NCBI GenBank assembly: GCA_902459845.2
Contig: CABPSV020000167.1
Span: forward strand, 1 to 17,500
DNA length: 17,500 bases
Reading direction: 5' to 3'
Origin: Hepatocystis sp. ex Piliocolobus tephrosceles
Taxonomy: Eukaryota; Apicomplexa; Aconoidasida; Haemosporida; Plasmodiidae
The notes under the pieces are model-generated. The model saw nothing but the letters and a program-made list of their open reading frames with translations, did no database searches and had not been told where the DNA came from. Shown piece by piece: positions 1 through 17,500 of the stretch. Made by a program: the position numbers and the translations under genes. Each line of letters begins with the position of its first letter. Position 1 is the stretch's first letter.

Positions 1-1
1 T

Positions 2-244
2 TTATCAAATAATGTTAATTTATCAAATAATGTTAATTTATCAAATAATGTTAATTTATCAAATAATGTTAATTTATCAAATAATGTTAATTTATCAAAT
101 AATGTTAATTTATCCGATAATGTTAATTTATCAAATAATGTTAATTTATCAAATAATGTTAATTTATCAAATAATGTTAATTTATCAAATAATGTTAATT
201 TATCAAATAATGTTAATTTATCAAATAATGTTAATTTATCAAAT
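2..244 (+). repeat. 18-bp in-frame tandem array, NNVNLS repeat
   Basis: Thirteen 18-bp units (ttatcaaataatgttaat) run from 2 to 235, with a partial copy to 244. Twelve are identical. The seventh (110-127) has two adjacent changes, giving Ser-Asp in place of Ser-Asn. The array touches the window edge, so its true length is unknown. Confidence 0.97.
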
Positions 245-3200
245 ATAAGTGAAACAAATAATAATGACAACATTGTAGAGAACATAAATAACGAAAAATC
301 TAATTTTATAAAAAACAAACAAAAGTCAAAATCGAAGTTAAAATCAAAAAAAAAGTCTACTAATATAAATCCAATTGAAGAATATTATAAAAAAAATTAT
401 GAAAACGAAATAAATAAAGAAGAACTAAACCTTTGTGACATATATCATGTTATATATACAGCTAGTCATTTTTATTGTAATATTTTATTTTTGGAATTTC
501 TTAAAAATTGTATAAATCAATACTATATGTTTAATTATATAAAAAAAAAAATTCAAATATATAAACAAAGTATAACAACAAAAAAGGTAGAGACCATTGC
601 TTCGTGTTATAACTACAATTTCAACGATAAGGATAATCTTTTACATGTATATATTGATTTATATCCGTTCGAGTTAGAAGAACAAATGTACTTTCACTTT
701 AATAAAACAGCTTTTATAAGTATAAATAGCGAACAGAGCAAAAATAAAACAATAATTTTAAAATTTACTATGAACAACCAAAATGGAAATATTAAGGTGT
801 TTATGTGGCCATTTAGTTTTTTTTTTAAAAAGGGTTTGACAGTGGAAGGTCAAACAGAAGGTGGGGCAACAGAAGGTGGGGCAACAGAAGGTGGAGCAAC
901 AGAAGGTGGAGCAACAGAAGAGGATCAAACAAAAGAGGGTCAAACAAAAGAGGTCGAAACGCACAAATTTGATAACATTTTGACATATTACGAATTTTGC
1001 TTTTGCAAACTTATAAAAAAAAAAATAAAAAAATTATTGGTTTATAACCCTATTTGTATGTATTTGGAAACTTGGTTAATCAAAGTATCCAATTGTTTAG
1101 TATATTTTTTATTTTCTATTTTGAAAACATTTTGTTTAAGTAGGTATAATAACAATAAAGTTAGACTTAAGTATAATAGGGACATACATAAAATAGAAAC
1201 TTTAATTGAAAAAAAAAAAAATATCAAAATATTAAAAAAAGAAATAAAAACAAAAAAGAAACCATTGTATTATCAATCATTTACTAATTTTAACGATATG
1301 AAAAAAAAAGAAATAGAGTTTAAAAGAAATATAATAAGTTTTTACAAACTAGTATTAAATTATTTTTTTGATTTTGATTATATTAGGGAAGAGTTAAATT
1401 TGGTTCGTTCGGGTTTAAGTAGTGGCAGTATTGGTAGTAGTGGCAGTAGTGACAATACAAGTAGTGACAGTGGCAGCGCAGAAATATGCGATATGTCCAC
1501 CTACTTCCTAGACAAACATGAAATAAAAAATAAAATAAAAATAGTTAAAGTAAAAAATGAAAAAAAAAAAAAAAAAAAAAAAGAAACAAGTGGATATTTT
1601 TATATAATGAGATATAAATTTTATGAGCAAAAAATAGATTTATTTATGGATTCAGAAAAGGGTAAATTTATTTTTAAATGCCACTGGGAAGATATTTTTA
1701 TAAATCTTATTGGTTTGCATTACAATTTGAAATTAATAATATATATTATTTATTTATTAAAACATTTTTCTTTATATATATATTTTTATAATTTATTAAA
1801 AATTAATTTTGTTAATTTATTACCTGGTAATGCTCAAATTATTAGTAGTAAAAATATGAATAATAATAATGTTGATATTAGTAATAATAATGTTGATATT
1901 AGTAATAATAATGTTAATAATAATATTAATAATAATATTAATAATAGTGTTAATAATAATAGTGGAAATTTTAAATTAATTAATAATTATATGAACAGTC
2001 AATTTTTTTATTATAAATTACAATTATATGACTTTTTAAAAGAATATAATTATTCAATAAATATAGACTTAACAAATTTTTTAAGCAACCTTTTTGAATA
2101 TATAGATTTTTGGTATTATATTTATGCACCTAAAAGAGATATTATTTCTTCATTTGATAATTATTATGAACAATTCGAGTCGTTTATGCGAAATATTATT
2201 CATTCGACAGGTAGCGATCGTAACAGTAGTAGTAGCGATGGTAATAGTAGTAGTAGCGATGGTAATAGTAGTAGTAGCGATGGTAATAGTAGTAGTAGCG
2301 ATGGTAATAGTAGTAGTAGCGATGGTAATAGTAGTAGTAGCGATGGTAATAGTAGTAGTAGTAGTAGAGCTGACGACAGTAATGTTGCTGAAGAAGATAT
2401 GCTCCACTCGAATGATTATAAAAAGAGAAAAACAAAAAATGGTATTGTAAAAAAACGTAAAAAAAATAAGTTTTATAGACATTCTTTTTTTACAGTTTTT
2501 TATTATACTATTTATATAAAAGATAACATACCCGTGTTATTATGTTTGTTTGTTGAAAAAAATTATATTTTTCAAACTTTTATTATTATATCGTATGAAA
2601 AAAATGATGAATACGATGAGGAAATAATAGAGGAAGGAATTGATTTTAATAAAAAAAAAAAAAATGTACAAGGTAACTATAAAGTTAACAGGTTGAGAAT
2701 TGAAAAAGACGAACAAAGAAATGAACAAAGAAATGAACAAAGAAATGATGAAAGAAATGAACAAAGAAATGATGAAAGAAATGATGAAAGAAATGAAGAC
2801 AAAAATGAAGAAAGAAATGAAGAAAGAAATGAAGAAAGAAATGAAGTAAAGGACAAACAAAAAAACAATTTTGTTATACCACTTATTCATAAAAAATATC
2901 GAATAAATAAAAATATGGTTTCTTATTTTCATGGTTTAAAAGAATTAATAAATAAATTTACAAGTATGTTTATTACATTAAAAAAAATAGCACAGATATA
3001 TTCTTTTGCTCCATTTTGGTTTACTCGTTGTGATCTATTCAATGAGTATCCTCCGATTTGGAAAAACACAAACAATAAACAAAATTATCAAAAAAAAAAA
3101 TATAACATAAATCCAATTTCCCATTATATTGATGATAAAAGTTATGAATATTTCAAAAATAATGAAAATAAAAAACATAGTATTGATTTACAATATTTTA

Positions 3201-6200
3201 TAAATAAGTATGATAAATCTAATAATTCTGAATATATAAATACAAAATATTCTGAAAACTATTTGAGTGATTATATGTTATGTTTTCAGTTTACGCTGAA
3301 TAAAATGTATTTTATTAGTAAGGGGCTACTACCTACTAAGCGAAAAGAAGCACAGCAAGGTGAACCGACCGAACAAACCAAACCGAACGAACAAAACAAA
3401 CTGAAAGAACAAACCAAACCGAACGAACAAAACAAACTGAAAGAACAAACCAAACGGAACGAACAAAACAAACTGAAAGAACAAACCAAACGGAACGAAC
3501 AAAGTAAAGAAGAAAAACAGTTTTTTATGAAAATCCTTCCATGCGGCTCCTTTTATTTAACAATCCTAATTAAGCAAAAAACATATATAAAAGTAAAAAG
3601 TGTGGATGACCTAAAAAATGAAGATACTTTATCTATTTTTTACGAACATGTAATTATAAATATGATCGTACAAAAAAGGAAAAAAAAAAAAAAGTGGAGT
3701 GATGGTATGAATAGTGGTGACCTGGACACACAGGAAAAAATCACTGAACAAAAAAACTGTGAAAAAAACTGTGAAAATATATGTGAAAAAAACTGTGAAA
3801 ATATATGTGAAAAAAACTGTGAAAATATATGTGAAAAAAACTGTGAAAATATATGTGAAAAAAACTGTGAAAATATATGTCAAAAAAAAGGTCAAAAAAA
3901 AAGAAGTAAAACACGAAAGGATAACTGGGTATTATTGACAAAAATTGATTTGTTTATTAAAGATGAATCCTCAATAAAAAATATTATATTTTTATTTTTT
4001 GTTATAATTAAAATTTATTCAAATTTATACATCTTTAATGAATTATATTATTTAGAACATTCACCATTAAACAAAATTTTTAACATAATTGAATGTTCTC
4101 TATTTCGAATAAAAATAGAATATTTTGGTAGTGGTAGTGGTAGTGGTAGTGGTAGTGGTAGTGGTAGTGGTAGTGGTAGTGGTAGTGGTAGTGGTAGTGG
4201 TAGTGGTAGTGGTAGTGGTAGTGGTAGTACTGAAAGATTAACCAGTTGTATGATAAACCTAGACCTTTTTAATGGTCAACTGCCAATAAATGCTGATAAA
4301 CAGTACTTAAATATTCTGAACGATCAGGATGAAAAAAATTGTTCAACAAAACTAGAAGAGTTAATTTTTACAGAGATGGACGAGCTGGATACAACTCTCA
4401 ACACAGTTGTTAGTGTGGATAATAGTGCTGATACAGGTAAATACAATAATAATAAAAATCAGCAGAAGAATAATCAGGAATACCAAAATTTCAAACATAA
4501 TAACTTAGAAAATTACTCAAACACAGTTTTAGATCATATTTTATTTATCAATATTATATTTAATTGTTCACTTAATGTTATTAATAAAATATATATAAAA
4601 GAAAAAAAAAAATTATATTTGTATTTAAAAAAATGTAAAAGTATTTTTAAGCTGTTAAAACTAATATGTTTAACTTTTGAATTTCATAAAAATATATATA
4701 CCCTTATAAATGAAACAAACGATCATTTAAATAAAATAAATTTGTTAAATCCAGTAAACGATTTAAAATATTTTGATTTATTTTATGAAAATATTTTTAC
4801 AATTAGCATAATATTTAATGAATTTCTTCAAATAGATGGTTTTATTTTATCATTTTTTATAATTCTTCAACCAGAAGATTATTTAAAAGTTATTATTATT
4901 CCGCATTATACAAGATGTGGCATAGGTATAGGTAAAACACATGAAGGAAACATAGCAGTAAAATCTTTTTATAAAAAAATGAAAAACCAAAAATCTTTCA
5001 ATCTTTTTAGTGACGATACTTTTGATGGTGGTTATGATGGTGGTTATGATGGTGGTGATGATAGTAGAAGACTAAACAAAGATGTAGGAACAAATTTTAA
5101 AAAAACTGTTTTATTTTATAATAATATAAATAAACAGTCGAAAATAAACATAAAAAATTACATTATAATTGATAATATGAGTGAAACAAGATTATTTATT
5201 TATTTATTTTTAAAATTTTTTAATATATTAAATAATAGTGATAATACAACGAATGTAAAATATTATGCTATAAAGGTTGGTACTAAAAATTATTTTGATA
5301 GTAATAATCCCTCTCCAACAGGAGATTTGGATAAAGGTAATGTAGTTGGTAATAAGTTATTTCAACAACAGCATGAATTTTTAAATAGTGATGAAGCAAT
5401 ATTAATGAATAGTAACAGCCGAAATGGAGGGAAAAATGACATCTTAAGTGAAGAGAGTTTTTTTATAGATTTAAAAATATTCGAAGATTATGACATGTTT
5501 TTTAATAATATAAAATATTTATTAAAATATATGAACAAAATAATATTAGTACAATTAAATTTTTATATTCCGTTTTTTCTTTCAACTGTATTATATCCAT
5601 TCATTGAATTTTTACGAACGACAAAAGTATGGTTTGTTTTGTTTGATTGTTTAAAAATTCATTATACCAATATAACTTTAAAAGGGTCATCAGATATAAA
5701 TAATATTTTTGAATATATAACAGCTGTAAAAAGGAAAAATAAAACGTTAAATAATTTTGGTAATAATTTAAAAGGTAATGATAATCAAGAGGCAAACATA
5801 AAAAAAAAACAAATCGCACAAGAGGAACAAAATGTAATTACAGTGAACAATATACAAACAAATAACAGTAATAACGACAGTAATAATAACAGTAATAACG
5901 ACAGTAATAATAACAGTAATAACGACAGTAATAATGACAATAAAAACGACAGTAATAATGACAGTAACAAAGACAATGACAGTAATATATATAATGACAG
6001 TAATATGTATAATGATATATATATACATATTGTCTGGTTTTTGTATATTTTTAAAACACCACATATAAGATTGTTACAAAAGTTAAAAAAAAAAAATCAC
6101 AAAAGAAAACGTAACACCATTATGGTAAATGTTAATGATTGTAATGACTACCATGTTAGTAATTCTGAAGAATCGGACTTTATATATTACAACAGTAGTA

Positions 6201-8128
6201 GTAATAGTAGTAGTAATAGTAGTAGTAGTATTAGTAGTAGTAATAGTAGTAGTAGTATTAGTAGTAGTATTAGTAGCAATAGCAGCAGTAATAGTAGCAA
6301 CGAAATAATAACAAAAAGAATTCGAATTGGTGGTATAAATGAAGAAGACAACAACAAGAACAATAAATCGGTCGAACAGGGTGACATAAAAAACAATAAC
6401 ATTATAAATGGTATCAGAATAGAAGAAGAAAAAAATGAAAAAACAAACGAAAAAAAAAAAAAAGAAAAAAACGAAGAAAAAAACGAAGAAAAAAAAAAAG
6501 AAAAAAACGAAGAAATAATATACAATGGTTTATTATTAAATGATTATACTGATAGCACAAATAAAATAACTACAGAACAATTAATGTATATTACTAATGC
6601 TTATACATATAATAATAATTATATTTTTTTAAATGAACATAAACCAACAGATATAGTTTTATTAAAAAAAATGTGTTTAAGGTATTATACTTTACAACAT
6701 TGGACTAAAGAAAACATGTTTAAATTGAAAAAAAAGAAAGAAGTAAATGATAGTAGTATATATGTTAATACATATGGTACTAAACGTAATAGTAAGGGTA
6801 AAGATGGTAAACACCGATTAAAAGAAATGGAGACTCCCAATTCGATTATATACATGGAACAAGAAAAAAATATATTCTCAAAAAAAGGATTTAATAATAT
6901 AATAAATAATTATAGTATAAATAATATAATACATTCGATTAGTATTTATTATGAAAATGTCGGTGAAACAATAGATGAAAAACATACTTGGTTTTATTGT
7001 AATGCGAAACATAATTTAGAAAAAAACGATAAAAATATTAATAACGAAACAGTAAATGGTACAAAAAAAAAAAAAAAAAAAAATTGTTTTTTTTTAATAG
7101 CACAGACGAATATATTAAATAATGTGAGTAAGTTGAATTCAGCTTTAAATACTATTTATAAATTTATAAAAATATGGTTTTTAAAAATGGATTTTATTAA
7201 TATTCGAACTTTTTTTTTATTACTTAATGAAATAATTAATGATAAAAAAAGTATATGTGAATTAAGCTCTTTATTGTTTAATTGTATTTTATCATATTAT
7301 GAACATTTGAACTTTTGGATTGCACAAAAATTTACAAACGTATCTGTTCCTTTTATCGAATTAATGTTTGTTCCAAGTGAACGTAAAGACATATGTAGTA
7401 GTACCATAAACAGTAGCACATGTGATAGTACCATAAGTAGTGGCATATATACTAAACAAGAAAAATTCTTAAAAAATGAAAAATTATTAAAAAAAGAATT
7501 TTATTTTTTTGAAGAAGCTGTTGCTTCTATTAATAATATGAAAGAAGTCTATTACAAAATGGAAGAAAATTATACAAACATAAAACCATTGTTAAATGAA
7601 AAAAAAAAGACAAATTCTAATACAACATTTACAATGATGGAAGATAGTTATAAAGAAAAAATAGTAGTACCACCTCCAAATGATATATGTAATGAAATTA
7701 TATCAACAGAAGGAAATGGAAACAGTGATAAAAACAACGTACATAATGAAACAACATATATGAACAATAAAATTTATATTAAATATAAACTTTGGAAATA
7801 TATGCCCTGTCCATTTAAAAATATAATATTATATAAAAAAGAGTTATATAACGATATAAATAAAAATAATACAAATATTACTTTATCTATTAAAATATCA
7901 TCTATACCTATACAAAATTTAAACGATGTTTATATAAATGGAGAAACATTTGTTAAGTTTCTTGTTTCAAATAAAATTGATCTGAATATAGCCCATGAAA
8001 GAGTTATGAATACTTTACAAAAATATAACTTAACTGCTAATTACTCATTAGTTGCCGCTCATACAGTTCTACACATTTCGACTTTTGAGTTATTGGGCAA
8101 TAAAGAGGAGGAAAAAAAGGGAGAATAA
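2..8128 (+). CDS. cg2: Giant low-complexity Plasmodium protein, 5' end outside window; candidate Cg2 orthologue
   Basis: The frame is open without a stop from base 2 to the TAA at 8126-8128, giving 2,708 residues with the N-terminus missing. The codon at 491 is TTG inside this open frame, not a start; translation of 2-490 is plainly coding (13 NNVNLS-type repeats, then a lysine-rich stretch). I recognise no domain. Non-repetitive blocks rich in Leu, Ile, Phe, Tyr and Asn alternate with repeat arrays. Some hydrophobic stretches (near 1711-1830, 3976-4050, 5194-5235) could be membrane or buried helices; I cannot tell which. The C-terminal ~100 residues (from about 7795) are repeat-free and probably a folded unit. 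No intron is evident. Identity as Cg2 is an inference from size (about 320 kDa in the window alone; Cg2 is reported near 330 kDa) and from the neighbouring CKYS glutaredoxin gene. The function of Cg2 is unknown to me. Confidence 0.8.
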   Translation, partial: LSNNVNLSNNVNLSNNVNLSNNVNLSNNVNLSNNVNLSDNVNLSNNVNLSNNVNLSNNVNLSNNVNLSNNVNLSNNVNLSNISETNNNDNIVENINNEKSNFIKNKQKSKSKLKSKKKSTNINPIEEYYKKNYENEINKEELNLCDIYHVIYTASHFYCNILFLEFLKNCINQYYMFNYIKKKIQIYKQSITTKKVETIASCYNYNFNDKDNLLHVYIDLYPFELEEQMYFHFNKTAFISINSEQSKNKTIILKFTMNNQNGNIKVFMWPFSFFFKKGLTVEGQTEGGATEGGATEGGATEGGATEEDQTKEGQTKEVETHKFDNILTYYEFCFCKLIKKKIKKLLVYNPICMYLETWLIKVSNCLVYFLFSILKTFCLSRYNNNKVRLKYNRDIHKIETLIEKKKNIKILKKEIKTKKKPLYYQSFTNFNDMKKKEIEFKRNIISFYKLVLNYFFDFDYIREELNLVRSGLSSGSIGSSGSSDNTSSDSGSAEICDMSTYFLDKHEIKNKIKIVKVKNEKKKKKKKETSGYFYIMRYKFYEQKIDLFMDSEKGKFIFKCHWEDIFINLIGLHYNLKLIIYIIYLLKHFSLYIYFYNLLKINFVNLLPGNAQIISSKNMNNNNVDISNNNVDISNNNVNNNINNNINNSVNNNSGNFKLINNYMNSQFFYYKLQLYDFLKEYNYSINIDLTNFLSNLFEYIDFWYYIYAPKRDIISSFDNYYEQFESFMRNIIHSTGSDRNSSSSDGNSSSSDGNSSSSDGNSSSSDGNSSSSDGNSSSSDGNSSSSSRADDSNVAEEDMLHSNDYKKRKTKNGIVKKRKKNKFYRHSFFTVFYYTIYIKDNIPVLLCLFVEKNYIFQTFIIISYEKNDEYDEEIIEEGIDFNKKKKNVQGNYKVNRLRIEKDEQRNEQRNEQRNDERNEQRNDERNDERNEDKNEERNEERNEERNEVKDKQKNNFVIPLIHKKYRINKNMVSYFHGLKELINKFTSMFITLKKIAQIYSFAPFWFTRCDLFNEYPPIWKNTNNKQNYQKKKYNINPISHYIDDKSYEYFKNNENKKHSIDLQYFINKYDKSNNSEYINTKYSENYLSDYMLCFQFTLNKMYFISKGLLPTKRKEAQQGEPTEQTKPNEQNKLKEQTKPNEQNKLKEQTKRNEQNKLKEQTKRNEQSKEEKQFFMKILPCGSFYLTILIKQKTYIKVKSVDDLKNEDTLSIFYEHVIINMIVQKRKKKKKWSDGMNSGDLDTQEKITEQKNCEKNCENICEKNCENICEKNCENICEKNCENICEKNCENICQKKGQKKRSKTRKDNWVLLTKIDLFIKDESSIKNIIFLFFVIIKIYSNLYIFNELYYLEHSPLNKIFNIIECSLFRIKIEYFGSGSGSGSGSGSGSGSGSGSGSGSGSGSGSGSGSTERLTSCMINLDLFNGQLPINADKQYLNILNDQDEKNCSTKLEELIFTEMDELDTTLNTVVSVDNSADTGKYNNNKNQQKNNQEYQNFKHNNLENYSNTVLDHILFINIIFNCSLNVINKIYIKEKKKLYLYLKKCKSIFKLLKLICLTFEFHKNIYTLINETNDHLNKINLLNPVNDLKYFDLFYENIFTISIIFNEFLQIDGFILSFFIILQPEDYLKVIIIPHYTRCGIGIGKTHEGNIAVKSFYKKMKNQKSFNLFSDDTFDGGYDGGYDGGDDSRRLNKDVGTNFKKTVLFYNNINKQSKINIKNYIIIDNMSETRLFIYLFLKFFNILNNSDNTTNVKYYAIKVGTKNYFDSNNPSPTGDLDKGNVVGNKLFQQQHEFLNSDEAILMNSNSRNGGKNDILSEESFFIDLKIFEDYDMFFNNIKYLLKYMNKIILVQLNFYIPFFLSTVLYPFIEFLRTTKVWFVLFDCLKIHYTNITLKGSSDINNIFEYITAVKRKNKTLNNFGNNLKGNDNQEANIKKKQIAQEEQNVITVNNIQTNNSNNDSNNNSNNDSNNNSNNDSNNDNKNDSNNDSNKDNDSNIYNDSNMYNDIYIHIVWFLYIFKTPHIRLLQKLKKKNHKRKRNTIMVNVNDCNDYHVSNSEESDFIYYNSSSNSSSNSSSSISSSNSSSSISSSISSNSSSNSSNEIITKRIRIGGINEEDNNKNNKSVEQGDIKNNNIINGIRIEEEKNEKTNEKKKKEKNEEKNEEKKKEKNEEIIYNGLLLNDYTDSTNKITTEQLMYITNAYTYNNNYIFLNEHKPTDIVLLKKMCLRYYTLQHWTKENMFKLKKKKEVNDSSIYVNTYGTKRNSKGKDGKHRLKEMETPNSIIYMEQEKNIFSKKGFNNIINNYSINNIIHSISIYYENVGETIDEKHTWFYCNAKHNLEKNDKNINNETVNGTKKKKKKNCFFLIAQTNILNNVSKLNSALNTIYKFIKIWFLKMDFINIRTFFLLLNEIINDKKSICELSSLLFNCILSYYEHLNFWIAQKFTNVSVPFIELMFVPSERKDICSSTINSSTCDSTISSGIYTKQEKFLKNEKLLKKEFYFFEEAVASINNMKEVYYKMEENYTNIKPLLNEKKKTNSNTTFTMMEDSYKEKIVVPPPNDICNEIISTEGNGNSDKNNVHNETTYMNNKIYIKYKLWKYMPCPFKNIILYKKELYNDINKNNTNITLSIKISSIPIQNLNDVYINGETFVKFLVSNKIDLNIAHERVMNTLQKYNLTANYSLVAAHTVLHISTFELLGNKEEEKKGE
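845..961 (+). repeat. 15-bp in-frame array, EGGAT/KEGQT repeat
   Basis: Eight consecutive 15-bp units encode EGQT-type, then four EGGAT copies (857-916), then EEDQT, KEGQT and KEVET. It is unusually G-rich for this gene and strongly acidic, directly after a hydrophobic Phe-rich stretch. Confidence 0.9.
1411..1475 (+). repeat. Ser-Gly low-complexity tract
   Basis: Degenerate agtggcagt-type units encode a flexible Ser/Gly linker within the giant protein. A poly-lysine run of about eight codons follows near 1559-1582. Confidence 0.8.
1855..1970 (+). repeat. Asn-rich array, NNNVDIS repeat
   Basis: A 21-bp unit encoding NNNVDIS occurs about two and a half times, then decays into Asn/Ile/Val-rich sequence. 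This is typical Plasmodium asparagine low complexity. Confidence 0.85.
2222..2365 (+). repeat. 21-bp in-frame array, NSSSSDG repeat
   Basis: Six near-identical 21-bp units encoding NSSSSDG run from 2222 to 2347, followed by a truncated unit. Codon use is homogeneous between copies (the same AGC before GAT each time), which points to recent expansion. Confidence 0.95.
2711..2854 (+). repeat. 12-bp in-frame array, EQRN/DERN/EERN repeat
   Basis: Eleven 12-bp units (gaacaaagaaat and variants) encode highly charged tetrapeptides EQRN, DERN, EDKN and EERN, with a degenerate twelfth unit. It probably forms an extended charged helix or a disordered stretch. Confidence 0.95.
3371..3508 (+). repeat. 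36-bp in-frame array, EQTKPNEQNKLK repeat
   Basis: Three full 36-bp units and one partial unit. The first two carry Pro (CCG) and the later two Arg (CGG) at position 5, so a single C-to-G change was copied between units. The composition is richer in C than the flanking sequence. Confidence 0.95.
3758..3880 (+). repeat. 24-bp in-frame array with cysteines, CEKNCENI repeat
   Basis: Five identical 24-bp units encode CEKNCENI, followed by one more Cys codon at 3878-3880, giving eleven cysteines at regular four-residue spacing. A lysine-rich stretch follows. Confidence 0.97.
4127..4228 (+). repeat. (Gly-Ser)17 hexanucleotide array
   Basis: Seventeen perfect copies of ggtagt encode alternating Gly-Ser. 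It is a 50% GC island in very A+T-rich DNA and should act as a flexible linker. Confidence 0.98.
5024..5059 (+). repeat. 12-bp array, DGGY repeat
   Basis: Three 12-bp units (gatggtggttat), the third with Asp in place of Tyr. Confidence 0.9.
5856..6000 (+). repeat. Asn/Ser/Asp low-complexity tract
   Basis: Interleaved AAT/AAC, AGT and GAC codons make NNDSNNNS-type repeats, about 45 residues, decaying into NDSNIYNDSNMY at the 3' end. Confidence 0.9.
6190..6300 (+). repeat. Serine-rich trinucleotide array
   Basis: AGT runs interrupted by AAT or ATT encode a Ser tract with scattered Asn and Ile, about 37 residues. Confidence 0.9.
6424..6516 (+). repeat. Lys/Glu charged tract
   Basis: GAAAAAAACGAAGAAAAA-like units encode a KEKNEEK-type charged segment of about 30 residues in the giant protein. 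Confidence 0.85.
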
Positions 8129-8212
8129 AAAAAGGTGAATAAAAAAAAGGTGAATAAAAACAGGTGAATAAAAACAGGTGAATAAAAACAGGTGAATAAA
8201 AACAGGTGAATA
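8120..8212 (+). repeat. 14-bp array spanning the stop codon of the giant gene
   Basis: Unit ggtgaataaaaaca. Copies lie at 8120-8133 (variant carrying the TAA at 8126-8128), 8134-8148 (one extra A), then four identical copies at 8149-8204 and a partial one. The period is not a multiple of three, unlike the arrays inside the reading frame, so the array belongs to the 3' UTR but begins within the last two codons. Confidence 0.95.
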
Positions 8213-8384
8213 TGAATTGCCAATAAAAATTGCTCATAAAAAGTACGCATAAAAATGAGAGGGAAAAAAAAAAAAAAAAAAAAATATATATACATATGTA
8301 TATATACATATACATATACATGTATACCTCCCCTTTTTTAACAACAAAAAACAAACAAATGAATGAATGATACTTTTTTTTGTG

Positions 8385-8417
8385 TGTTTTCTTTTCCCAT
8401 TATAAAAAAAGAAAACA
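8385..8417. repeat. Perfect 11-bp inverted repeat (hairpin 1)
   Basis: Left arm 8385-8395 (tgttttctttt) and right arm 8407-8417 pair perfectly around an 11-base loop, in the likely 3' UTR of the giant gene. It could be a processing or termination structure, but inverted repeats arise easily in A+T-rich DNA. Confidence 0.7.
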
Positions 8418-8495
8418 AAAAAAAATATTAATTATTAATGTTAATGCATAGCACTTTTTTTTAAGTTCGTTTTTTCCCTTATGAAATAATAACAC

Positions 8496-8544
8496 TTTTT
8501 TTTTTTATGTTTTACATTTCCATTTTAAAACATAAAAAAAAAAA
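8496..8544. repeat. Perfect 19-bp inverted repeat (hairpin 2)
   Basis: Left arm 8496-8514 (eleven T then atgtttta) and right arm 8526-8544 are perfectly complementary with an 11-base loop, the same loop length as hairpin 1 about 80 bp upstream. Any function is inferred. Confidence 0.75.
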
Positions 8545-8660
8545 AAATAAAAAAAAAAAAAAATAAAAAAAAAACTTTTAATATAGTCACCAATATAAAA
8601 CATTATTAACATAATTTGTCATATACATGTATTAACACTTTTTTTTTTGTAAATTTTGTA

Positions 8661-8830
8661 ACGAACACGTTTTATTTTTAACGAGCATGTTTTGTTTTTA
8701 ACATGTACATTTCATTTTCAATACGTACGTTTCATTTTCAATACGTACGTTTCATTTTCAATACGTACGTTTCATTTTCAACACTTATGTTTTGTTTTTA
8801 ATGCGTATGTTTATTCTTAATACGTGTAAG
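8661..8830. repeat. 20-bp minisatellite with palindromic ACGTACGT core
   Basis: Eight exact-length 20-bp units (8661-8820) plus half a unit. The central three (8721-8780) are identical: atacgtacgtttcattttca. The outer copies are increasingly diverged. Units 3 to 6 each contain GTAC inside an 8-bp palindrome. The array lies about 550 bp upstream of the glutaredoxin start codon. Confidence 0.9.
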
Positions 8831-9277
8831 TAATAATCTGCCTAAATATATGCAAAAGTTGATGAAAAAGCAGTTTGCTTTTTAATGATATTTTTACAGT
8901 TGTAAGAAAAAAGCTATTGAAAAAACGTTTGACAGTTATAATTCATAATATATATGTTTAATTAATATCATGCACTTAGTCTGACAGTGTCACTCATCTA
9001 TTACAACAATGTATCCCGTCTATTCTAATTTTTTTCCCAAATGTGACAGTATGCAACAATATGTAACAATATTTTGAAATTTTTTTATTTTTATTTTTTT
9101 TATTTTCGAATTTGCTAAAAACGTAGTAGAAAAAAATAAATTAATAAACAAAGTGTAATAGGCACAAAACGAGTGTAAAAATAAAAAGTAGCACCCAAAA
9201 AAAAAAATAAAATAAAATAAAATAAAATAAAGTAAAACAAATAAAATAAAATAAAATAAAGTAAAACAAATAAAATA

Positions 9278-9370
9278 AATAAAACAAGAAAAACAAATAA
9301 AACAAGAAAAACAAATAAAACAAGAAAAACAAATAAAACAAGAAAAACAAATAAAACAAGAAAAACAAAT
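9278..9370 (+). repeat. 18-bp array abutting the glutaredoxin start codon
   Basis: Five identical copies of aataaaacaagaaaaaca (9278-9367), with a partial copy running to within 13 bases of the ATG. The period is a multiple of three and the repeat is open in the glutaredoxin frame (N-K-T-R-K-T), back to a TAA at 9257-9259, with no in-frame ATG in that stretch. Confidence 0.95.
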
Positions 9371-9382
9371 AAAACGAATAAA

Positions 9383-10366
9383 ATGAATAAATGGACTAAG
9401 TCGAATTTTATTTATTTATATGGTTGTGCTAATATATATACCATACACAAAAACCATTATAATTGTACAGACTTTAATAATCATAGTTATAATATAAAAA
9501 CCAATTTAAAATTGTTTAAAAATGTAGGCAAACAGTATGAAAACAAACACAGATCACAAAATGGTTCTACAATAATACTAATCGCTAAAACATGTACTAC
9601 AAATAAAGTAATTAGTGACAGTAAGAAAAAATTTAATAATATATTAAAAGAAAATATATTCGAAAAAAAAAGTATTTTAAACAAATTTCAAAAAATAAAC
9701 AATGAAAAGGAAAAAAGTATAATTTACGAAAAAAATCACAAATATATATCAACATACAATAAAAATATAAAGTTTAGTGACTTTAATACTAAAGCTTATA
9801 CATTTCTTTTAAATAAATTATTTAAGACGTTTTATGAAACAAAAATAATTGTAAGTTGCGAGGAGGCAAGTAATAATATAAAATTAAGCAATGGTATAAC
9901 CAGTAGTGCGGGTGAAAGACGGGATCAAAACATTTATCACAATGGGAGTAGTAACGTAAATAGCGACATAAATAGTGACATAAATAACGACATAAATAAA
10001 GATAAAGAAAGTTGTAGTAAAGATGAAAACGAACCACCAGTTGTCGAGTTAAATGAAGATATGATAAAACTAATTGAAAGCATATTGAAAAAACAAAAAT
10101 TGGTTTTATTTATGAAAGGAACAGCATTAAATCCTTTTTGCAAATACAGTAAACAAGCAATATATATTTTAAAATTAAATAATGTAAAGATAATACATAC
10201 GGTTAATATTTTAGAAAATGAAGATTTGAAAAAGGCTTTAAAAATTTACTCAAACTGGCCTACATTTCCACAGTTATATGTTAATGGAAAATTTATAGGA
10301 GGAATAGACAAAATACAAGAGTTACATGATAACAACGAATTAAAAAACATATTAGCACAGTTATGA
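9383..10366 (+). CDS. GLP3: Monothiol glutaredoxin-like protein, CKYS active site (GLP3-type)
   Basis: 327 residues, single exon, first ATG after the in-frame stop at 9257-9259. The C-terminal ~100 residues (226-327) are a glutaredoxin fold of the Grx5/monothiol class. Visible marks are the glutathione-contacting Lys in K245-G-T, the active site C253-K-Y-S256 eight residues later, N-W292-P-T-F-P296 with the cis-proline, and G306-G-I-D309 near the end. The usual monothiol motif is CGFS; CKYS is the variant I recall being reported for P. falciparum GLP3. This class generally binds glutathione and Fe-S clusters rather than acting as a dithiol reductase; the role here is inferred. Residues 1-225 are an Asn/Lys-rich extension without a recognised domain, including an INSDINNDINKD-type tract. 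It could hold an organelle transit peptide, but no clear signal peptide is visible. Confidence 0.92.
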   Translation: MNKWTKSNFIYLYGCANIYTIHKNHYNCTDFNNHSYNIKTNLKLFKNVGKQYENKHRSQNGSTIILIAKTCTTNKVISDSKKKFNNILKENIFEKKSILNKFQKINNEKEKSIIYEKNHKYISTYNKNIKFSDFNTKAYTFLLNKLFKTFYETKIIVSCEEASNNIKLSNGITSSAGERRDQNIYHNGSSNVNSDINSDINNDINKDKESCSKDENEPPVVELNEDMIKLIESILKKQKLVLFMKGTALNPFCKYSKQAIYILKLNNVKIIHTVNILENEDLKKALKIYSNWPTFPQLYVNGKFIGGIDKIQELHDNNELKNILAQL

Positions 10367-10373
10367 AAAGGTA

Positions 10374-10404
<31 letters not shown>

Positions 10405-10606
10405 CAATTCTTTTATGAAGAGCAAGCTACAATAATATTTCTGTTTATATTATATTATAATATATGTATATGATATGTATTGCATATTTCATTTAATAAA
10501 TATTTGATCTATACAAAAAAAAAAAAAAAAAAAAAAAAAAAGGAAGATAGGGAACCGAGTTTGTACTATTTCATTTTATTATAGTGCATAAAATTTTACC
10601 TATTTG

Positions 10607-10704
10607 TATTATTGTATTTGTATTATTGTATTTGTATTATTGTATTTGTATTATTTTATTTGTATTATTTTATTTGTATTATTGTATTTGTATTATTGTT
10701 ATTG
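10607..10704. repeat. 14-bp minisatellite
   Basis: Seven consecutive 14-bp units of tattattgtatttg. Copies 4 and 5 share a G-to-T change and the last copy is diverged. It lies in the 3' flank of the glutaredoxin gene. Confidence 0.93.
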
Positions 10705-10951
10705 TTACTATTATTATTTATTTTATTCATCCGTTTTTTAAATTCGGGTTTGTCCGTTTCACTTAGTCAATTATATTTTTTGTAACTTGTTTGTTCGCTT
10801 CATTGGATGTTTAACTACTTATTCAATCACTCACTTAACTCGCTTTACTTTTTAAGCTCATAACTTTTGGAACAGTGTGAATTCCGCAAAAAAATAAAAT
10901 AAAATTGTCTACCCCAAACAATGTACACAGTTTACACAATTATATAGCGAT

Positions 10952-11077
10952 ATGTTACTAGCATTTAGTTTTTTATGCAATTTAAAAATGTTAATTACTA
11001 AAAACAAAAATAGTTCAAATGTTTTTATGGTCTTACATAAATCAAATGAAAAAATAGTAAACGAAATAAATAGATAA
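10952..11077 (+). other. Possible small open frame of 41 codons
   Basis: ATG at 10952 to TAA at 11075-11077 encodes 41 residues with a hydrophobic start (MLLAFSFLCNLK) and a polar remainder. Local composition is less A+T-skewed than the surroundings. No similarity recognised; a chance open frame is at least as likely as a gene. Confidence 0.12.
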
Positions 11078-11259
11078 GCACAATAAAATATGTAAGTAAA
11101 AAATAAATAATAATAATCATAAAAAAAAAAAAACAGCTAAGTGAAAAAATAGTAACATCCATAATAATAAAACAACAAATACATCATTAGAAAAGTGTAA
11201 AAGAAGTGTATAGCTATTTTCTCTAAAAAAACTATTTGAATTAAACGTATTTTTTAATG

Positions 11260-11325
11260 TAGGATTAATGTAGGATTAATGTAGGATTAATGTAAGATTA
11301 ATGTAAGATTAATGTAAGATTAATG
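11260..11325. repeat. 11-bp minisatellite
   Basis: Six 11-bp units: three of taggattaatg, then three of taagattaatg. The block structure shows a point change followed by local duplication. Confidence 0.93.
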
Positions 11326-11334
11326 TAGGAGGTC

Positions 11335-11365
<31 letters not shown>

Positions 11366-11376
11366 AAAATTATAAA

Positions 11377-11507
11377 ATGAACGACATGTACAACATAAAC
11401 TGCGTGAACAACATGAAAAGCATTGAACGTAATAATGTTAAATAAAAGCGTTCACTTGTTTTTATTTATTTTTTATTTTTTTATCCATTTTTTTATTTTT
11501 ATTTTTA

Positions 11508-11538
<31 letters not shown>

Positions 11539-11617
11539 TTTATTTTTTTTTTTTTTGCTTTTTTTTTCTTTGACAGCTACAAAAAAAAATATTAACAATT
11601 CAGGTAAAATTTTATAA
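11377..11617 (+). other. Possible two-exon micropeptide gene or spliced noncoding RNA
   Basis: Exon 1 would be 11377-11428 (ATG, 17 codons plus one base), notably richer in G+C than its surroundings. A donor (C|GTAATA) starts a 148-base intron with a long pyrimidine tract and the acceptor ttctttgacag at 11576. Exon 2, 11577-11617, continues in frame to TAA. Total 93 coding bases, 30 residues. A second donor-like CAG|GTAAAA lies inside exon 2 at 11604. No homology recognised; this rests only on composition and splice consensus. Confidence 0.2.
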
Positions 11618-11676
11618 AAATAAACCATAAAATAAAATGTTCATATGGATAGCTATATTATGTGCTATGTAATAGC

Positions 11677-11718
<42 letters not shown>

Positions 11719-11741
11719 ACGAATTGGTATATGAACAGATA

Positions 11742-12942
11742 TTAAAAGAGCAAATTAAACAAATCATAAGGAAACAATTTCCAAACAATGTGATTTTTTT
11801 TAGGAATGTAAAAATGAAAGAAGTCGTTATATTTTTCAAAAAATTGTGGTAAATATTCATTGTAAATCATTTTATCACCATAAACTAAACTTGACTCAGG
11901 TACATATGCAAAATGAAAGTTTTCACCGTCCGTATTTTTTGTCTGATCAGTATTTATTTCATAATAAATTCCTTCTTCATTGTTTGTTTTGTAGAAATAT
12001 TGTTTTGTGTTTCTGTTATTATTACTATTGGTACTAATATTTTTTATAATATTTTCGTGTATGTTGCTATTATCTTTTTTTGTGCTTGAGTGATCACTTG
12101 TTTGTTCTTGTGTTTTTTCGTGTATTTTTTCGTGCTTTTTTTCATGCTCTTTTTCATGCTCTTTTTCATGTGTTTTTTCGTGCTTTTTTTCGTGTGTTTT
12201 TTCGTGCTTTTTTTCATGCTTTTTTTCGTGCTTTTTTTCGTGCTTTTTTTCGTGCTTTTTTTCGTACATTTTTTCGTACATTTTTTCGTACATTTTTTCG
12301 TACATTTTTTCCTGTTTTTTTTTGTGTGTTTTATTTCGACTATCACTATCTCCACCTTTATTAGTACCATTTTTATTATTAATTAAGATAAGATAGTGAA
12401 CTTTGTTTTGCAATTCAGATGAATGTTCAGAAAAAAACTTATTTTTCCAATCAACTGGAGCAAAGCATTTATAATCCCAACTAACTACAACAGCTTCATA
12501 ATTCCAATACTTATGTCTCACTACATTACCAACATGAAAAACAGGATTATTTTTATATACTCTTTTTCTTACATAATTACCTAAACCAAAATCATAAATT
12601 TTACTAAATTCAATTTTTTTATAATTAGGTACTGCTTCAAAGGTTAACATATTTTTGTTTTTAAGTATCTTCGGTTTTAATTTATAAAATTCGTATAAAT
12701 ATAATTTATCTTCTATACTTATGTATTGATCATCTTTCACATTATATATATTATCATTTTTATCATTACCCATATCATCATTTTTATCATCACTTATATC
12801 ATTACTCATATCATCATTTTTATCATCATTTTTATCATTACTCATATCATCATTTTTATCATCACTCATATCATAACTATGTATGTTATTATTTTTGTTC
12901 ATGTTATAATTATAATTATATTTGTTTCCAATTTTAAAGGGA

Positions 12943-13015
<73 letters not shown>

Positions 13016-15593
13016 CCATTTGTTCCATTTGTTCCATTTGTTGTAATGAATTTTCAGTTTGATCAAATAAAGAATTATAAATACTATTTTGAGAAGAATA
13101 TCCTTGAAATTGTGAGCTAGCAGCATATAAATTTTTAAAACATTTTATAACTTTTTTATCAGATTTTACTGGTGTATGTAATATTGGATGAGCACATAAA
13201 AAAGGCGATGTAATATGGATATAGTAATGACATTCTGTTGTTTGAAAAACATTAAGAATACTTGTATTCATTTTATTTTTATGATGTAAAGAGCAATCAA
13301 AATAAATAGTCGTTATATAATAATAGAACTGATTTAATGAATCTTTACATATTCCACCTTTCAAATCAAATGCTAAAACTTTGTAAAATTTATATGAATT
13401 AATTTTTAATAGCTCATCTGGTTTATCCATTATATATACACTCATATAAGGTATTTGATTAACCGAAAATGAGAAATAAGGTGAATATAAATTTATAAAT
13501 GATGTATTATGAAATAGATTTAGTGAAGATAATATGTTAGGTAAATGATGTAAGTTTGGTATTTCTGGAAATTCGTTAGAGCCAGGTGTAGGAATTGTAA
13601 TTGAACTAAATAGACTGTTTGAATTGTTTTCGCCTATATTGGTGGTATTTATGGTGTTGCTACTGTTTCCGGTACTTGTGGTGGTACCACTATTTGTGCC
13701 ACTAGAAGTACCACTAGAAGTACCACTACTTGTGCTAGTACCTGTAGTCTTACCCGGATCAATACTAGTGCCTGCAACGACATTTGCGCCGACCAGCGTA
13801 TGTGAAGAACGTTGCACATGCGATGAAACTGGCGGATATTCATGAGGTATATTAGCATAATTTTTGTGTATACTACTACCACTGCTATTACTGCTATTAC
13901 TGCTATTACTGCTATTACTGCTATTACTGCTATTACTGCTATTACTGCTATTACTGCTATTACTGCTATTACCACTGCTATTACCACTGCTATTACCACT
14001 GCTATTACTACTACCATTGCTATTACTACTACCACTGCTATTACTACTACCACTGCTATTACTACTACCACTGCTATTACTACTACCACTTGTTACTGAA
14101 ATGTTGCCACTTTTTATTACATGCTGATGCTGTGTAAAAAAATTACTACTTTTTAGTAATTCCTGTTTTTTTTTTTTTAAAATATTTTCTACATTTTTTT
14201 TCATCATAAATTCTGTTTTGGATACTGGAAAAATATCATAAGTTTTTTCAAAAAATGGAATTCCTTCATTTATAGAAACATAGGAAGAGCCTAATGAAAT
14301 AATTGGATCTTTTATTTTTCCATTTTCATCTTTTTTATATTTTACGACACTATAAGGTAAACAAATTTCATAAATATAATCCTCTTCATCTTTTATAAAA
14401 TTAAAACATTTATTCATTAAATTTTTAACTAAATAATGATTAGGTGGGTTTATTTTATTAGTATAATCACAAAATAAATAAGCACTTAAAGTAATACGAT
14501 ATACATTTTTTATATTTGGATAATATGCATTAATATTTTCATTCATTTTATTTTTTAATGCTGTATAATAATTATTGTTATATGTATAAAATGAAAAAGT
14601 TTTAAAAAAATAAGCTTCATTAGATTTTATTTTATTTAAAATAATATTATAAAGTTTTGTTATGTTTAAATTTGTGTATAAATATATTTGAAAAAATAGA
14701 GGATAATAATTCCTATCTAATAATTCAAAACTATTTATTCTTAAATTATTATTACCACATATATATAATACTTCAAAAAAATTAATATTATCTGTATAAT
14801 ATTGTACAATTGTATTATTCGAAAATAATAAATCTAAACCGTTTATATAATTCGAAATGGATAAAACTTTTTTTATTTTTATTTTTTTATTACTAGATTT
14901 GTTGAATGGAGAATAGTCATTTATAATAAATGATATAAATTTATTTAAACATATTTTTAATACATTTTCATTATTATAAAAATAATCAACACATGTATTG
15001 TTAATAGTCATCATCTTTCCTTTAATAATATGTTCTTTTAATGATGTTTCTTCATTTATGTTTTTATATACTCTATTTTTATGGTATACATTAAATTTAT
15101 ATTTATAAAATATATAATCATACAATTTTTGAAAATTACAAGTAAATATTTTATTTTTTTCAAGACCATTATTAATACGGTTAGTAGTAGTAATAGTAGT
15201 AGTAATAGTAGTAGTACCACTACTGATGTCATTATTTACTATTCCCTCATCTTGTAACAACAATTTATAATTAGTATTATCGCTTTCATATTTTAAAATA
15301 TAATTTGTATTTAATTTTTCTTCTAAATAATTATTAATATCATTAATATTTAAATTTTTAAAAATGTTATAATCTTCCTGACATGTCAGCTCATTTTTAT
15401 TATCATATTGTTCATTATTTAATAAACATAAAAATGCATCTTGTCCGACAGTTATGTTGGTATATTTTAGTGAATTATTCAAACTGATTAACTCACTCGG
15501 TATACTATAATCTAACTGTATTTCATATTTTTTATTTAAAAAGCATATACATAATAATATGTTTAGTGTAATTATTACAATATATATAAACAT
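11742..15593 (-). CDS. cg1: Secretory MRH-domain (OS-9/erlectin-like) and YccV/HspQ-like domain fusion; candidate Cg1 orthologue
   Basis: 1,283 residues, single exon, ATG at 15591-15593. Residues 1 to about 19 are a hydrophobic signal peptide ([18 protein letters not shown]). An MRH (mannose-6-phosphate-receptor homology) domain of OS-9 type spans about 390-805. Its first half has C396 and Y-E-I-C411 with a following LGSS; its second half has G-G-I-C749, F-D-C767, E787-C788-H-Y-Y and F-L-C800-A-H-P, matching the SC-Y...LC-HP signature of OS-9. A Ser/Asn/Gly/Thr-rich insert separates the halves. Then come poly-Gln (23), Asp/Lys/Asn repeats, and from about 1019 to the C-terminus a YccV/HspQ-like domain resembling that of FBXO21: [26 protein letters not shown] and F-Y-I-P, itself interrupted by a KHEK repeat (about 1085-1162). 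There is no KDEL-type tail. Domain calls are by eye. The Cg1 name is inferred only from gene order and size. Confidence 0.88.
12108..12312 (-). repeat. 12-bp in-frame array, KHEK/MYEK repeat
   Basis: About sixteen 12-bp units encode tetrapeptides YEKM, then [12 protein letters not shown] and IHEK. The array is a highly charged insert inside the YccV-like domain, between its Y-L-I-L-I strand and A-Y-V-P-E segment. Confidence 0.95.
12745..12885 (-). repeat. Asp/Lys/Asn-rich array, DDKNDDMSN repeat
   Basis: Fifteen-base modules encoding DDKND and DDMSN/NDISD alternate irregularly, giving about 45 mostly acidic residues upstream of the YccV-like domain. Confidence 0.9.
12945..13037 (-). repeat. 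Poly-glutamine tract with MEQ repeats
   Basis: Twenty-three consecutive CAA codons (12945-13013 on the reverse strand), preceded in the protein by three Gln-Met-Glu units. It is a pure trinucleotide run and so likely length-polymorphic. Confidence 0.97.
13875..14094 (-). repeat. Asn-Ser-Ser / Gly-Ser-Ser array inside the MRH domain
   Basis: About 72 residues of SNSSGS then NSSG and NSS units, encoded by AATAGCAGT repeats. By my count it creates about sixteen N-S-S sequons plus one N-G-S. A second Ser/Thr/Gly stretch (SGTSSGT units) follows in the protein near 13670-13740. Confidence 0.93.
15181..15235 (-). repeat. Short Thr/Ile trinucleotide tract
   Basis: Repeated ACT/ACTATT codons encode a [17 protein letters not shown] segment of about 18 residues in the N-terminal third of the MRH/YccV protein. 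Confidence 0.8.
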
Positions 15594-15641
15594 TTTATCA
15601 CATTTCGCGTTTTATACTTTTCATTTTGCAATATACAGATG

Positions 15642-15670
<29 letters not shown>

Positions 15671-15676
<6 letters not shown>

Positions 15677-15766
15677 ATATTTTCATATACACATATATAT
15701 ATATTATTATATTTTCATATACACATATATATATATTATTATATTTTCATATACACATATATATAT
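15671..15766. repeat. 32-bp tandem repeat in (AT)n context
   Basis: Three identical 32-bp units, each starting attattatattttcatatac and ending in alternating AT, at 15671, 15703 and 15735. Degenerate TTTTACATACAC units continue to about 15840. It sits 80-250 bp upstream of the MRH/YccV start codon, in the probable 5' UTR or core promoter. Confidence 0.9.
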
Positions 15767-16046
15767 ATTTTTACATACACATACGTATACATATATTTTT
15801 ACATACACCTACATATACACCTACACATATACATACATATATTTTTTTAATTATTCATAATTTAAAAACAAATTGCACAATATAAAAATATATGGACAAT
15901 TTTTAATGCTGAAGCAACATGTCCTTCAAAATGAGCAGACATATTGTGATAATTTTAACCTTCTCACAATTTTGTCCTTATAATTTTATTAATTAAATTA
16001 TTTTTTAAAAATATAATAATTTTACAATTTTTATCCGTTTTTGGAG

Positions 16047-16085
<39 letters not shown>

Positions 16086-16371
16086 ATCTCTTTACTGTTT
16101 ATATACTGCACAAGTTTTATTAATGGATTAAAGTTTATGATTAAGATGGGTTAAAAAAAAAAAAAAAAAAATGAATGAAAATGAAAATGAAATAATAATA
16201 AATGAATGAACGAATAGAAAAACAAATAAAATATTGTAAACGATTTGAAATATATTTATGTACACCTAAAATGTAGATTTTATATAAAACTTACTGTTTC
16301 TATATATATGTTTATTTATTTAATTATTTTTAAATGTATAAAAGCAAGATACTTTTGAGGGGAGTTGGGCT

Positions 16372-16411
<40 letters not shown>

Positions 16412-16680
16412 GTTGAGTGTTTTTACATGGCTCATAAGAAAATTAATATATAATATATACGTAAAGTACAACAATAATTTTTTTTTAACAGCTACATCAT
16501 TCACTCGTGTTAATATATAAATAATATATATATACATATATATATATATACATATATATATATATTATTTATATGTAAGTACGCAATTACATTTATAATA
16601 TTAACCCAGTTACAATATAACAAATATATAAACCATTTTTTTTTATTTAGTTAAATTTTTTTTTAAAGTAAATTTTTTAT

Positions 16681-16740
16681 TTTTATTTTCATTCCTATTT
16701 TTATTTTCATTCCTATTTTTATTTTCATTTTTATTTTTTT
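16681..16740. repeat. 18-bp pyrimidine-rich array
   Basis: Two to three units of cattcctatttttatttt, with T-rich degenerate copies on either side, immediately preceding the G-rich purine island at 16744. Confidence 0.8.
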
Positions 16741-16911
16741 TATGGAGGAAGGAGGGAGGAGAAATTATAAAAATGTTTTTACATATCATAGATTTTTAAA
16801 AAATATCCTAAGTTTGTATGATTTTCACCGTAGCATTTATGAATCCGTTCATGCATATACATAAATATATACAAAAGTTCACATGACTATTTATTACTAC
16901 TATTATTATTT

Positions 16912-16912
<1 letters not shown>

Positions 16913-16973
<61 letters not shown>
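16913..16973. repeat. 61-base poly-T run
   Basis: An uninterrupted run of 61 T on the + strand (poly-A in the sense of the MRH/YccV gene), the longest homopolymer in the window. The exact length may be affected by sequencing or assembly. Confidence 0.9.
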
Positions 16974-16974
<1 letters not shown>

Positions 16975-17500
16975 TATAAAAGCCAGAATTTAAAAACGTT
17001 TACACAATTGGAATATAACATTTATAAAAAAATAAATGTCTATCCCTTTAAGTTATAAGATATACATCTCCTTATCAACATATATATACACATGTATATG
17101 CGCACGTTGTATAAAACACATTGAAACAAAAGAAGGAATAGTTGTTTATTAATGTATATTTTTTTTTTTTTTTTTTTTTTTGTTACTGTATAATTCATTT
17201 TAAAAAATGATGAGTTATAACTGAATTGGAAGAAAAAAAGAAAAGAAAGAAAAAAAAAAATGTTCGAAATATTTGGCGAAAGGTATTTGACATTTTTACG
17301 CAATTTTTTTTTTTTTTTTTTTTAAATTAGAAGTTCCAATCTTAATTATATTTTATAAAAATTATATAAATAAAGAAATATAGTTGTAAAGTCTTCTAAA
17401 CAAAGTATAAAAAAAAAAAAAAAAATAATATATTATAAGTGGATATGGCTAATAAATTAAAATAATCGTTATCAATATTTTATTTTAAGGCCTTGGTATA

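Follow-up and report, generated by a model that had tools for sequence, protein, structure and literature searches.

We describe the product of an open reading frame (ORF) in a 17,500-nucleotide stretch of Hepatocystis sp. ex Piliocolobus tephrosceles (contig CABPSV020000167.1, positions 1 to 17,500; here, the window). The ORF runs from 15593 to 11742 on the minus strand as 1283 uninterrupted codons (1283 amino acids and a stop), and by its sequence is the ortholog of Plasmodium cg1 (PF3D7_0709100, formerly PF07_0035), a long-known orphan gene beside the chloroquine-resistance transporter gene. Its protein joins a predicted signal peptide, a probable MRH-type domain and a C-terminal YccV domain. 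We tentatively propose that Cg1 is an OS-9/erlectin-like luminal adaptor of endoplasmic reticulum (ER)-associated degradation (ERAD) that does not read mannose and is joined to a YccV interaction domain, a reading that we hold with a little less than even confidence. The HRD1 branch of ERAD is encoded, yet the N-glycans of P. falciparum consist of one or two N-acetylglucosamine (GlcNAc) residues and have no mannose, i.e. the signal read by OS-9/Yos9 elsewhere is missing there (PMC4628283). Cg1 is a concrete candidate for how malaria ERAD substrates are chosen, and its architecture, apparently a decayed sugar-reader fold joined to a fold of bacterial protein-degradation helpers, hints at how malaria parasites might pick out faulty ER proteins. 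The literature searched gave no function for cg1 beyond its place next to pfcrt; an ERAD role would be a possible one and, if true, would mean that a YccV domain is present in the lumen of the secretory pathway. No title or abstract opening among the matches listed from the open-licence literature described an MRH domain in Cg1.

From three protein searches we obtained 15 relatives (P0002-P0016), of which 14 belong to named Plasmodium species. With the first 500 residues as query, 12 relatives were found; 11 came from named Plasmodium species, and most of these are annotated as 'Cg1 protein' or as 'chloroquine resistance associated protein cg1'. Other regions of two orthologs, used as queries, raised the number to 15. 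Over the whole alignment, the window's protein is 47-57% identical to 12 of the relatives. Only Cg1 proteins came up as closest relatives, and no named relative outside Plasmodium was reached with the search tool, which needs shared exact 5-residue words. The fusion of MRH and YccV domains may be older than the genus Plasmodium. The window's protein has the same domain order as Plasmodium Cg1, but longer repeats, and is about equally far from the species compared, which sets its haemosporidian source at some distance from each of them. Counts out of 16 below refer to the window's protein and the 15 relatives, aligned.

A preliminary description, made from the window's sequence, had proposed one secretory protein in which a signal peptide precedes an MRH lectin-type domain and a YccV/HspQ-like domain, and the architecture itself is supported. 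The first 19 residues are strongly hydrophobic, with a mean hydropathy of 2.81, as expected of the signal peptide (residues 1-20, 15534..15593, minus strand like all parts of the ORF). Given this N-terminus and the finding that no 19-residue stretch starting after residue 90 exceeds a hydropathy of 0.85, Cg1 is predicted to be secreted and soluble, both calls being made from hydropathy. The hydrophobic N-terminus is shared by 16 of 16 proteins, following an N-terminal extension of the gene model in one (P0012). The 18-residue YccV-like segment and the later FYIP that had been read from the C-terminal part are both present in the ORF, and the domain to which they were assigned was recovered by profile search: PF08755 matches residues 1019-1078 (12360-12539) at 40.4 bits (E 3.8e-10, cut-off 22.8). 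PF08755 was found in 12 of the 13 members of the first alignment, with P0012 the sole miss, and precomputed annotation places a YccV domain in the same protein in 14 of the 15 relatives, again with the exception of P0012, whose model ends before the domain. Separate genes for the two domains were found in none of the 15 relatives. P0012 has 913 amino acids, lies on a 3.6 kb contig, is near P. coatneyi sequence and carries the N-terminal extension, while its end departs before the YccV domain; it is probably an artefact of gene modelling or assembly.

On these profile matches the C-terminal YccV domain is secure. It is not, however, an HspQ by the test of the NCBIfam equivalog TIGR02097, which matched all three proteins tried but below its cut-off of 38.05 bits (34.8, 37.2 and 30.6). 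Public names already label this part of Cg1 'hemimethylated DNA-binding domain', and in the assembly, which is incomplete (12.4 Mb, 611 contigs), Cg1 is the sole YccV match at E <=0.001. The first part of the domain with its lead-in spans residues 985-1072 (12378..12641), followed by an insert of K/H/E-rich repeats (residues 1073-1226, 11916..12377) and by a conserved C-terminal tail (residues 1227-1283, 11745..11915; FAYVPESSL...FYIPK...WKLFPYD). The tail has no profile match of its own, and from its order and its motif we take it to be the rest of the YccV domain. A comparison of the C-terminal part of the window's protein with the PDB found no YccV structure.

The MRH-type region (residues 386-830) is split by a long low-complexity insert rich in S/N/G/T (residues 461-712, 13458..14213), and its halves were therefore searched separately, with significance taken from HMMER's own E-values. 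Among 15 full-length proteins scanned, PF07915 matched four (E 0.0057 to 0.58) and PF13015 one (E 0.087), all below cut-off. The first half alone (residues 386-460, 14214..14438, with C396 and C411) matched PF07915 in six of eight pieces (best E 0.0016), while two other families matched one piece each (E 0.027 and 0.16). The second half alone (residues 713-830, 13104..13457, with C749, C767, C788, C800 and then C818) had PF13015 as its one family match, in five of nine pieces (best E 0.0051). Against the PDB, the three top matches of the window's second half were erlectin, twice (E 0.014 and 0.019), and OS-9 (E 0.052), and a 9-sequence profile of this half ranked erlectin first and second (E 0.0046 and 0.012). 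Full-length queries reached the same place behind noise, with OS-9 at E 0.64 for the window's protein and erlectin at E 0.38 for that of P. vivax. In a Foldseek search with a weak model of the MRH region, the human OS-9 MRH domain (3aih) ranked first (probability 0.94, E 0.52) and GNPTG second, and chains of OS-9, XTP3-B and Yos9 stood at ranks 19, 21, 26, 27 and 37 of the best 50.

The six cysteines named in the preliminary description as an OS-9-type framework (C396, C411, C749, C767, C788 and C800) are all present and are cysteine in 16 of 16 proteins. Because the two halves agree in order and cysteine register, region 386-830 is likely an MRH-type domain. The earlier MRH assignment thus stands in part: the halves and the orthologs match MRH models weakly and consistently, and the curated cut-off is not reached. 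Median identity to the relatives is 65% and 62% for the two MRH halves and 66% and 82% for the two YccV parts, against 15-30% for linkers and inserts (insert medians are drawn from only 2-6 relatives, those spanning half or more of the stretch). Judged by this conservation, the MRH domain as a whole is not decaying.

The sugar-binding site is another matter. Mutation of one arginine greatly lowers glycan binding by OS-9 (residue 188), XTP3-B (428) and Yos9 (200) (PMC7835635). This arginine is missing in 16 of 16 Cg1 proteins, its aligned place, read from the erlectin PDB alignment extended by one residue, being held by Tyr in 13 and His in three; none of the 16 has an Arg in the stretch that starts at the third residue past C749 and ends at C767, and in the P. 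vivax group an Arg immediately follows C749. The two Trp reported to set OS-9 specificity (PMC3332353) likewise have no counterpart, as the stretch from C396 to Y419 is free of Trp throughout the 16 proteins. At the position matching OS-9 E212, which precedes the fifth cysteine by four residues, Gln stands in 12 and Thr in four, and Glu in none. A simple loss is countered by a Glu that stands directly before the fifth cysteine, three residues after the aligned E212 place, in 16 of 16 proteins, which may be a shifted carboxylate; in the four rodent sequences a second Glu lies three residues further up. The pocket Gln position is Lys in nine, Arg in five and Gln in two, while the pocket Tyr is kept in all 16. 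Of the OS-9 positions used here for Trp, Gln, Glu and Tyr, E212 and Y218 agree with the chain numbering in the PDB alignment. Most sugar-site residues are lost by alignment, and the evidence does not bear out the label 'lectin' that the domain had been given: neither the Arg nor the Trp pair occurs in any of the 16 proteins, and the P. falciparum N-glycans offer no mannose to read. In such a setting one would expect a fold that stays under constraint while its pocket decays.

How might such a protein serve ERAD? OS-9 has been reported to bind, and to be needed for, a non-glycosylated substrate, which its R188A mutant still binds (PMC4049591), and in plants the OS9-SEL1L link persists when the MRH domain is mutated (PMC3332353); from these two observations a lectin-dead OS-9-like protein can still serve as an adaptor. 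Candidate partners are at hand, as the same assembly encodes HRD1 (SYVN1 region E 1.3e-25, plus a RING finger), a Derlin, and a Sel1-repeat protein that is collinear with SEL1L over ~315 residues (E 2.3e-31) and is our SEL1L-like candidate. The ERAD core genes of the assembly (SEL1L-like, HRD1, Derlin) lie at L013 1380-3626 (+), L014 580-1950 (-) and L010 1501-1800. A study of malaria ERAD components takes up SEL1L/HRD3 in its discussion, and its main text names OS-9 and Yos9 nowhere (PMC3422240). Searches of the assembly for PF07915, GH47, ALG3, PF13015 and calreticulin gave nothing, but an expected STT3 was likewise missed, as was cg1 itself by the PF07915 and PF13015 searches, which points to an incomplete assembly or too weak a search, and these absences therefore count for nothing.

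We envision Cg1 as a soluble secretory-pathway protein composed of an N-terminal cysteine domain, an OS-9/erlectin-like MRH domain with a decayed sugar pocket and a C-terminal YccV/HspQ-like domain. Its place would be the lumen of the ER, where it would recruit substrates as part of the HRD1-SEL1L(Hrd3) degradation complex. Stabilized by its disulfides, the MRH fold would act in protein binding and docking, with misfolded polypeptide and the repeats of SEL1L as its ligands in place of mannose, and the YccV domain would provide a second protein-binding platform, as in the HspQ and ClpF of protease systems. A broader and more doubtful extension is that the Plasmodium lineage, while losing the mannose of its N-glycans, kept an OS-9/erlectin-type protein, turned its MRH lectin into a reader of misfolded luminal proteins that needs no glycan (or into a reader of the bare GlcNAc stub), and paired it with a YccV/HspQ adaptor in the ER lumen, which would make Cg1, so far known chiefly as a bystander at the chloroquine-resistance locus, the missing malaria ERAD substrate receptor; we regard this as rather unlikely.

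Several results weigh against the adaptor proposal, in part by weakening the MRH assignment. The window's own full-length protein has no MRH match in Pfam, and neither has its own second half, which PF13015 missed. The MRH bit scores available stay below cut-off (best 19.1 against 27 for PF07915 in first-half pieces, and 12.9 against 23 for PF13015 in full-length proteins), and the PDB E-values given above are for whole chains, with best single stretches at 0.028-0.11. OS-9 is missing from the PDB list of the second-half profile, the first-half profile found no MRH protein in the PDB but one unrelated short peptide (E 0.13), and the whole-alignment profile found nothing there up to E 1. Two AlphaFold models were poor, with a mean predicted local distance difference test (pLDDT) of 30 and 36; the Foldseek E-values were at least 0.5, with the unrelated WIPI3 at rank 3 (probability 0.92), and the 50 matches listed by the VIA second-look aligner included no MRH chain and were unrelated proteins, many of them beta-propellers. 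Such results would suit a superficial MRH likeness, i.e. a secreted cysteine-rich protein of another fold, joined to YccV, unrelated to OS-9/erlectin and with some other secretory or surface role, and so would the scarcity of sugar-site residues. This we consider unlikely, in view of the separate matches of both halves to MRH models in order and in cysteine register, the erlectin and OS-9 chains that head the PDB lists for the second half, and the first place of human OS-9 in the Foldseek list. The adaptor function faces points of its own. In other organisms OS-9 reportedly has no part in the fate of several further unglycosylated substrates (PMC4049591), and a non-glycosylated substrate was little affected when Yos9 was lost (PMC7835635). 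Against the SEL1L-like protein, two other Sel1-repeat proteins score better than SEL1L, and data on Cg1 localisation, interactions or phenotype were not found in the open-licence literature. To our knowledge a YccV domain in a lumen has no precedent.

If the region is an MRH domain, Cg1 need not be an ERAD adaptor. Some MRH proteins, e.g. glucosidase II beta and GNPTG, act outside ERAD, and Cg1 could be an ER-resident folding or trafficking factor such as a chaperone-like cargo receptor; the second half indeed matches PF13015, a glucosidase II beta-type model, and GNPTG was second in the Foldseek list. The best PDB sequence matches are nonetheless the ERAD proteins erlectin and OS-9, and those components of calnexin-type glycan quality control with which glucosidase II works are reported missing from P. 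falciparum (PMC4628283); we give this alternative a low probability. Somewhat less probable still is a Cg1 that remains a lectin, with its pocket retuned to the Plasmodium stub of GlcNAc or GlcNAc2 on asparagine. A stub of this kind is what P. falciparum carries, the pocket keeps its Tyr throughout, its Gln in two of 16 and a Glu directly before the fifth cysteine in all, and both MRH halves are well conserved; the essential Arg is nevertheless gone, the aligned Glu position changed and Trp absent between C396 and Y419, and we know of no MRH domain that binds GlcNAc. The least probable alternative, which we consider very unlikely, places Cg1 in the apicoplast, where it would serve the Clp protease as a YccV adaptor like ClpF and its signal peptide would be the first part of a two-part targeting signal. 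In plants the Clp protease is served by ClpF, which contains a YccV domain, and Clp and ClpS are present in apicoplasts, but ClpF is stated to be unique to higher plants (PMC7966870). In all 16 proteins the net charge over the 50 residues that follow residue 20 (residue 75 in P0012) lies between -4 and +1, which is not transit-peptide-like, the invariant cysteines suit an oxidising ER, and no UVR or other Clp domain was found in Pfam scans of Cg1 proteins.

Cg1 can be set beside three kinds of known protein. With OS-9, erlectin (XTP3-B) and Yos9 it shares a hydrophobic N-terminus, predicted solubility, weak matches of both MRH halves, the six cysteines and the pocket Tyr, and it has no KDEL-type retrieval signal, as is reported also for OS-9, XTP3-B and Arabidopsis OS9 (PMC7835635); it differs by its missing lectin Arg, Trp pair and aligned Glu, and by its large inserts, extra N-terminal domain and C-terminal YccV domain. 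Its YccV domain belongs with HspQ/YccV by PF08755, while it falls short of TIGR02097 and, in contrast to HspQ, is eukaryotic, fused within a protein with a signal peptide and interrupted by a repeat insert. FBXO21 is a YccV protein linked to protein degradation. Like it and plant ClpF (PMC7966870), Cg1 carries a eukaryotic YccV domain in a longer protein, degradation-linked in those two; unlike them, it has a secretory rather than a cytosolic or plastid N-terminus, and neither UVR nor F-box was found, the latter giving no match up to E 10 in the 13 members of the first alignment or in a set of eight proteins (six shared).

Ahead of the MRH region lie two further segments. Residues 21-110 (15264..15533) include an invariant C56, have a median identity of 47% and match no family. 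A conserved N-terminal domain follows at residues 151-385 (14439..15143), with 62% median identity and five invariant cysteines (C152, C201, C215, C279 and C375); it has no family match, no confident model and no significant profile similarity to the MRH region. The spacing of C201/C215 resembles that of C396/C411, and a second, N-terminal MRH domain as in erlectin was considered and dropped, the profile comparison giving E >=0.062 and probabilities <1%. The idea that residues 21-110 correspond to the N-terminal segment of OS-9/erlectin was unsupported, as a PDB profile search returned two unrelated matches (E 0.57 and 0.68). Between the MRH and YccV domains lies a low-complexity linker (residues 831-984, 12642..13103) with poly-Q and D/K/N repeats.

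The whole ORF (11742..15593, minus strand) was recognized as the Cg1 ortholog from the ORF listing and the 15 relatives, and the locus agrees. The P. falciparum locus reads sco1, crt, a small nucleolar RNA, cg1, glp3, cg2 (PMC6547842). Here we observed cg2-glp3-cg1-crt, where cg2 is assigned by position only and the CRT-like matches lie at 20004-21332 of the contig, starting ~2.5 kb right of the window's end. The gene is taken as cg1 because its closest relatives are Cg1 proteins only and because the glutaredoxin, the cg2-position ORF and the CRT-like matches stand in the same order. PF07_0035 is linked to Cg1 in PMC4014544, where the association of cg1/cg2 with chloroquine response is attributed, as likely, to linkage to pfcrt, and where a cited study reports, by its title, that allelic modifications of cg2 and cg1 leave the chloroquine response unaltered; we therefore do not treat cg1 as a resistance gene.

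The cg2-position ORF (2..8128, plus strand, placed by the gene order in PMC6547842) has 2708 amino acids in view and is open at the window's left edge. Tandem repeats, among them GS, SSSSDGN and ENICEKNC, are numerous in it. No Pfam domain scores above cut-off, a weak match to LED_rpt (E 0.0035, below cut-off) falling in repeats near its start. The neighbour glp3 (9383..10366, plus strand), identified by its glutaredoxin domain (PF00462, E 1.8e-16) and the gene order in PMC6547842, has a long N-terminal extension. Its glutaredoxin carries a CKYS site with one cysteine. This site resembles those of single-cysteine glutaredoxins.

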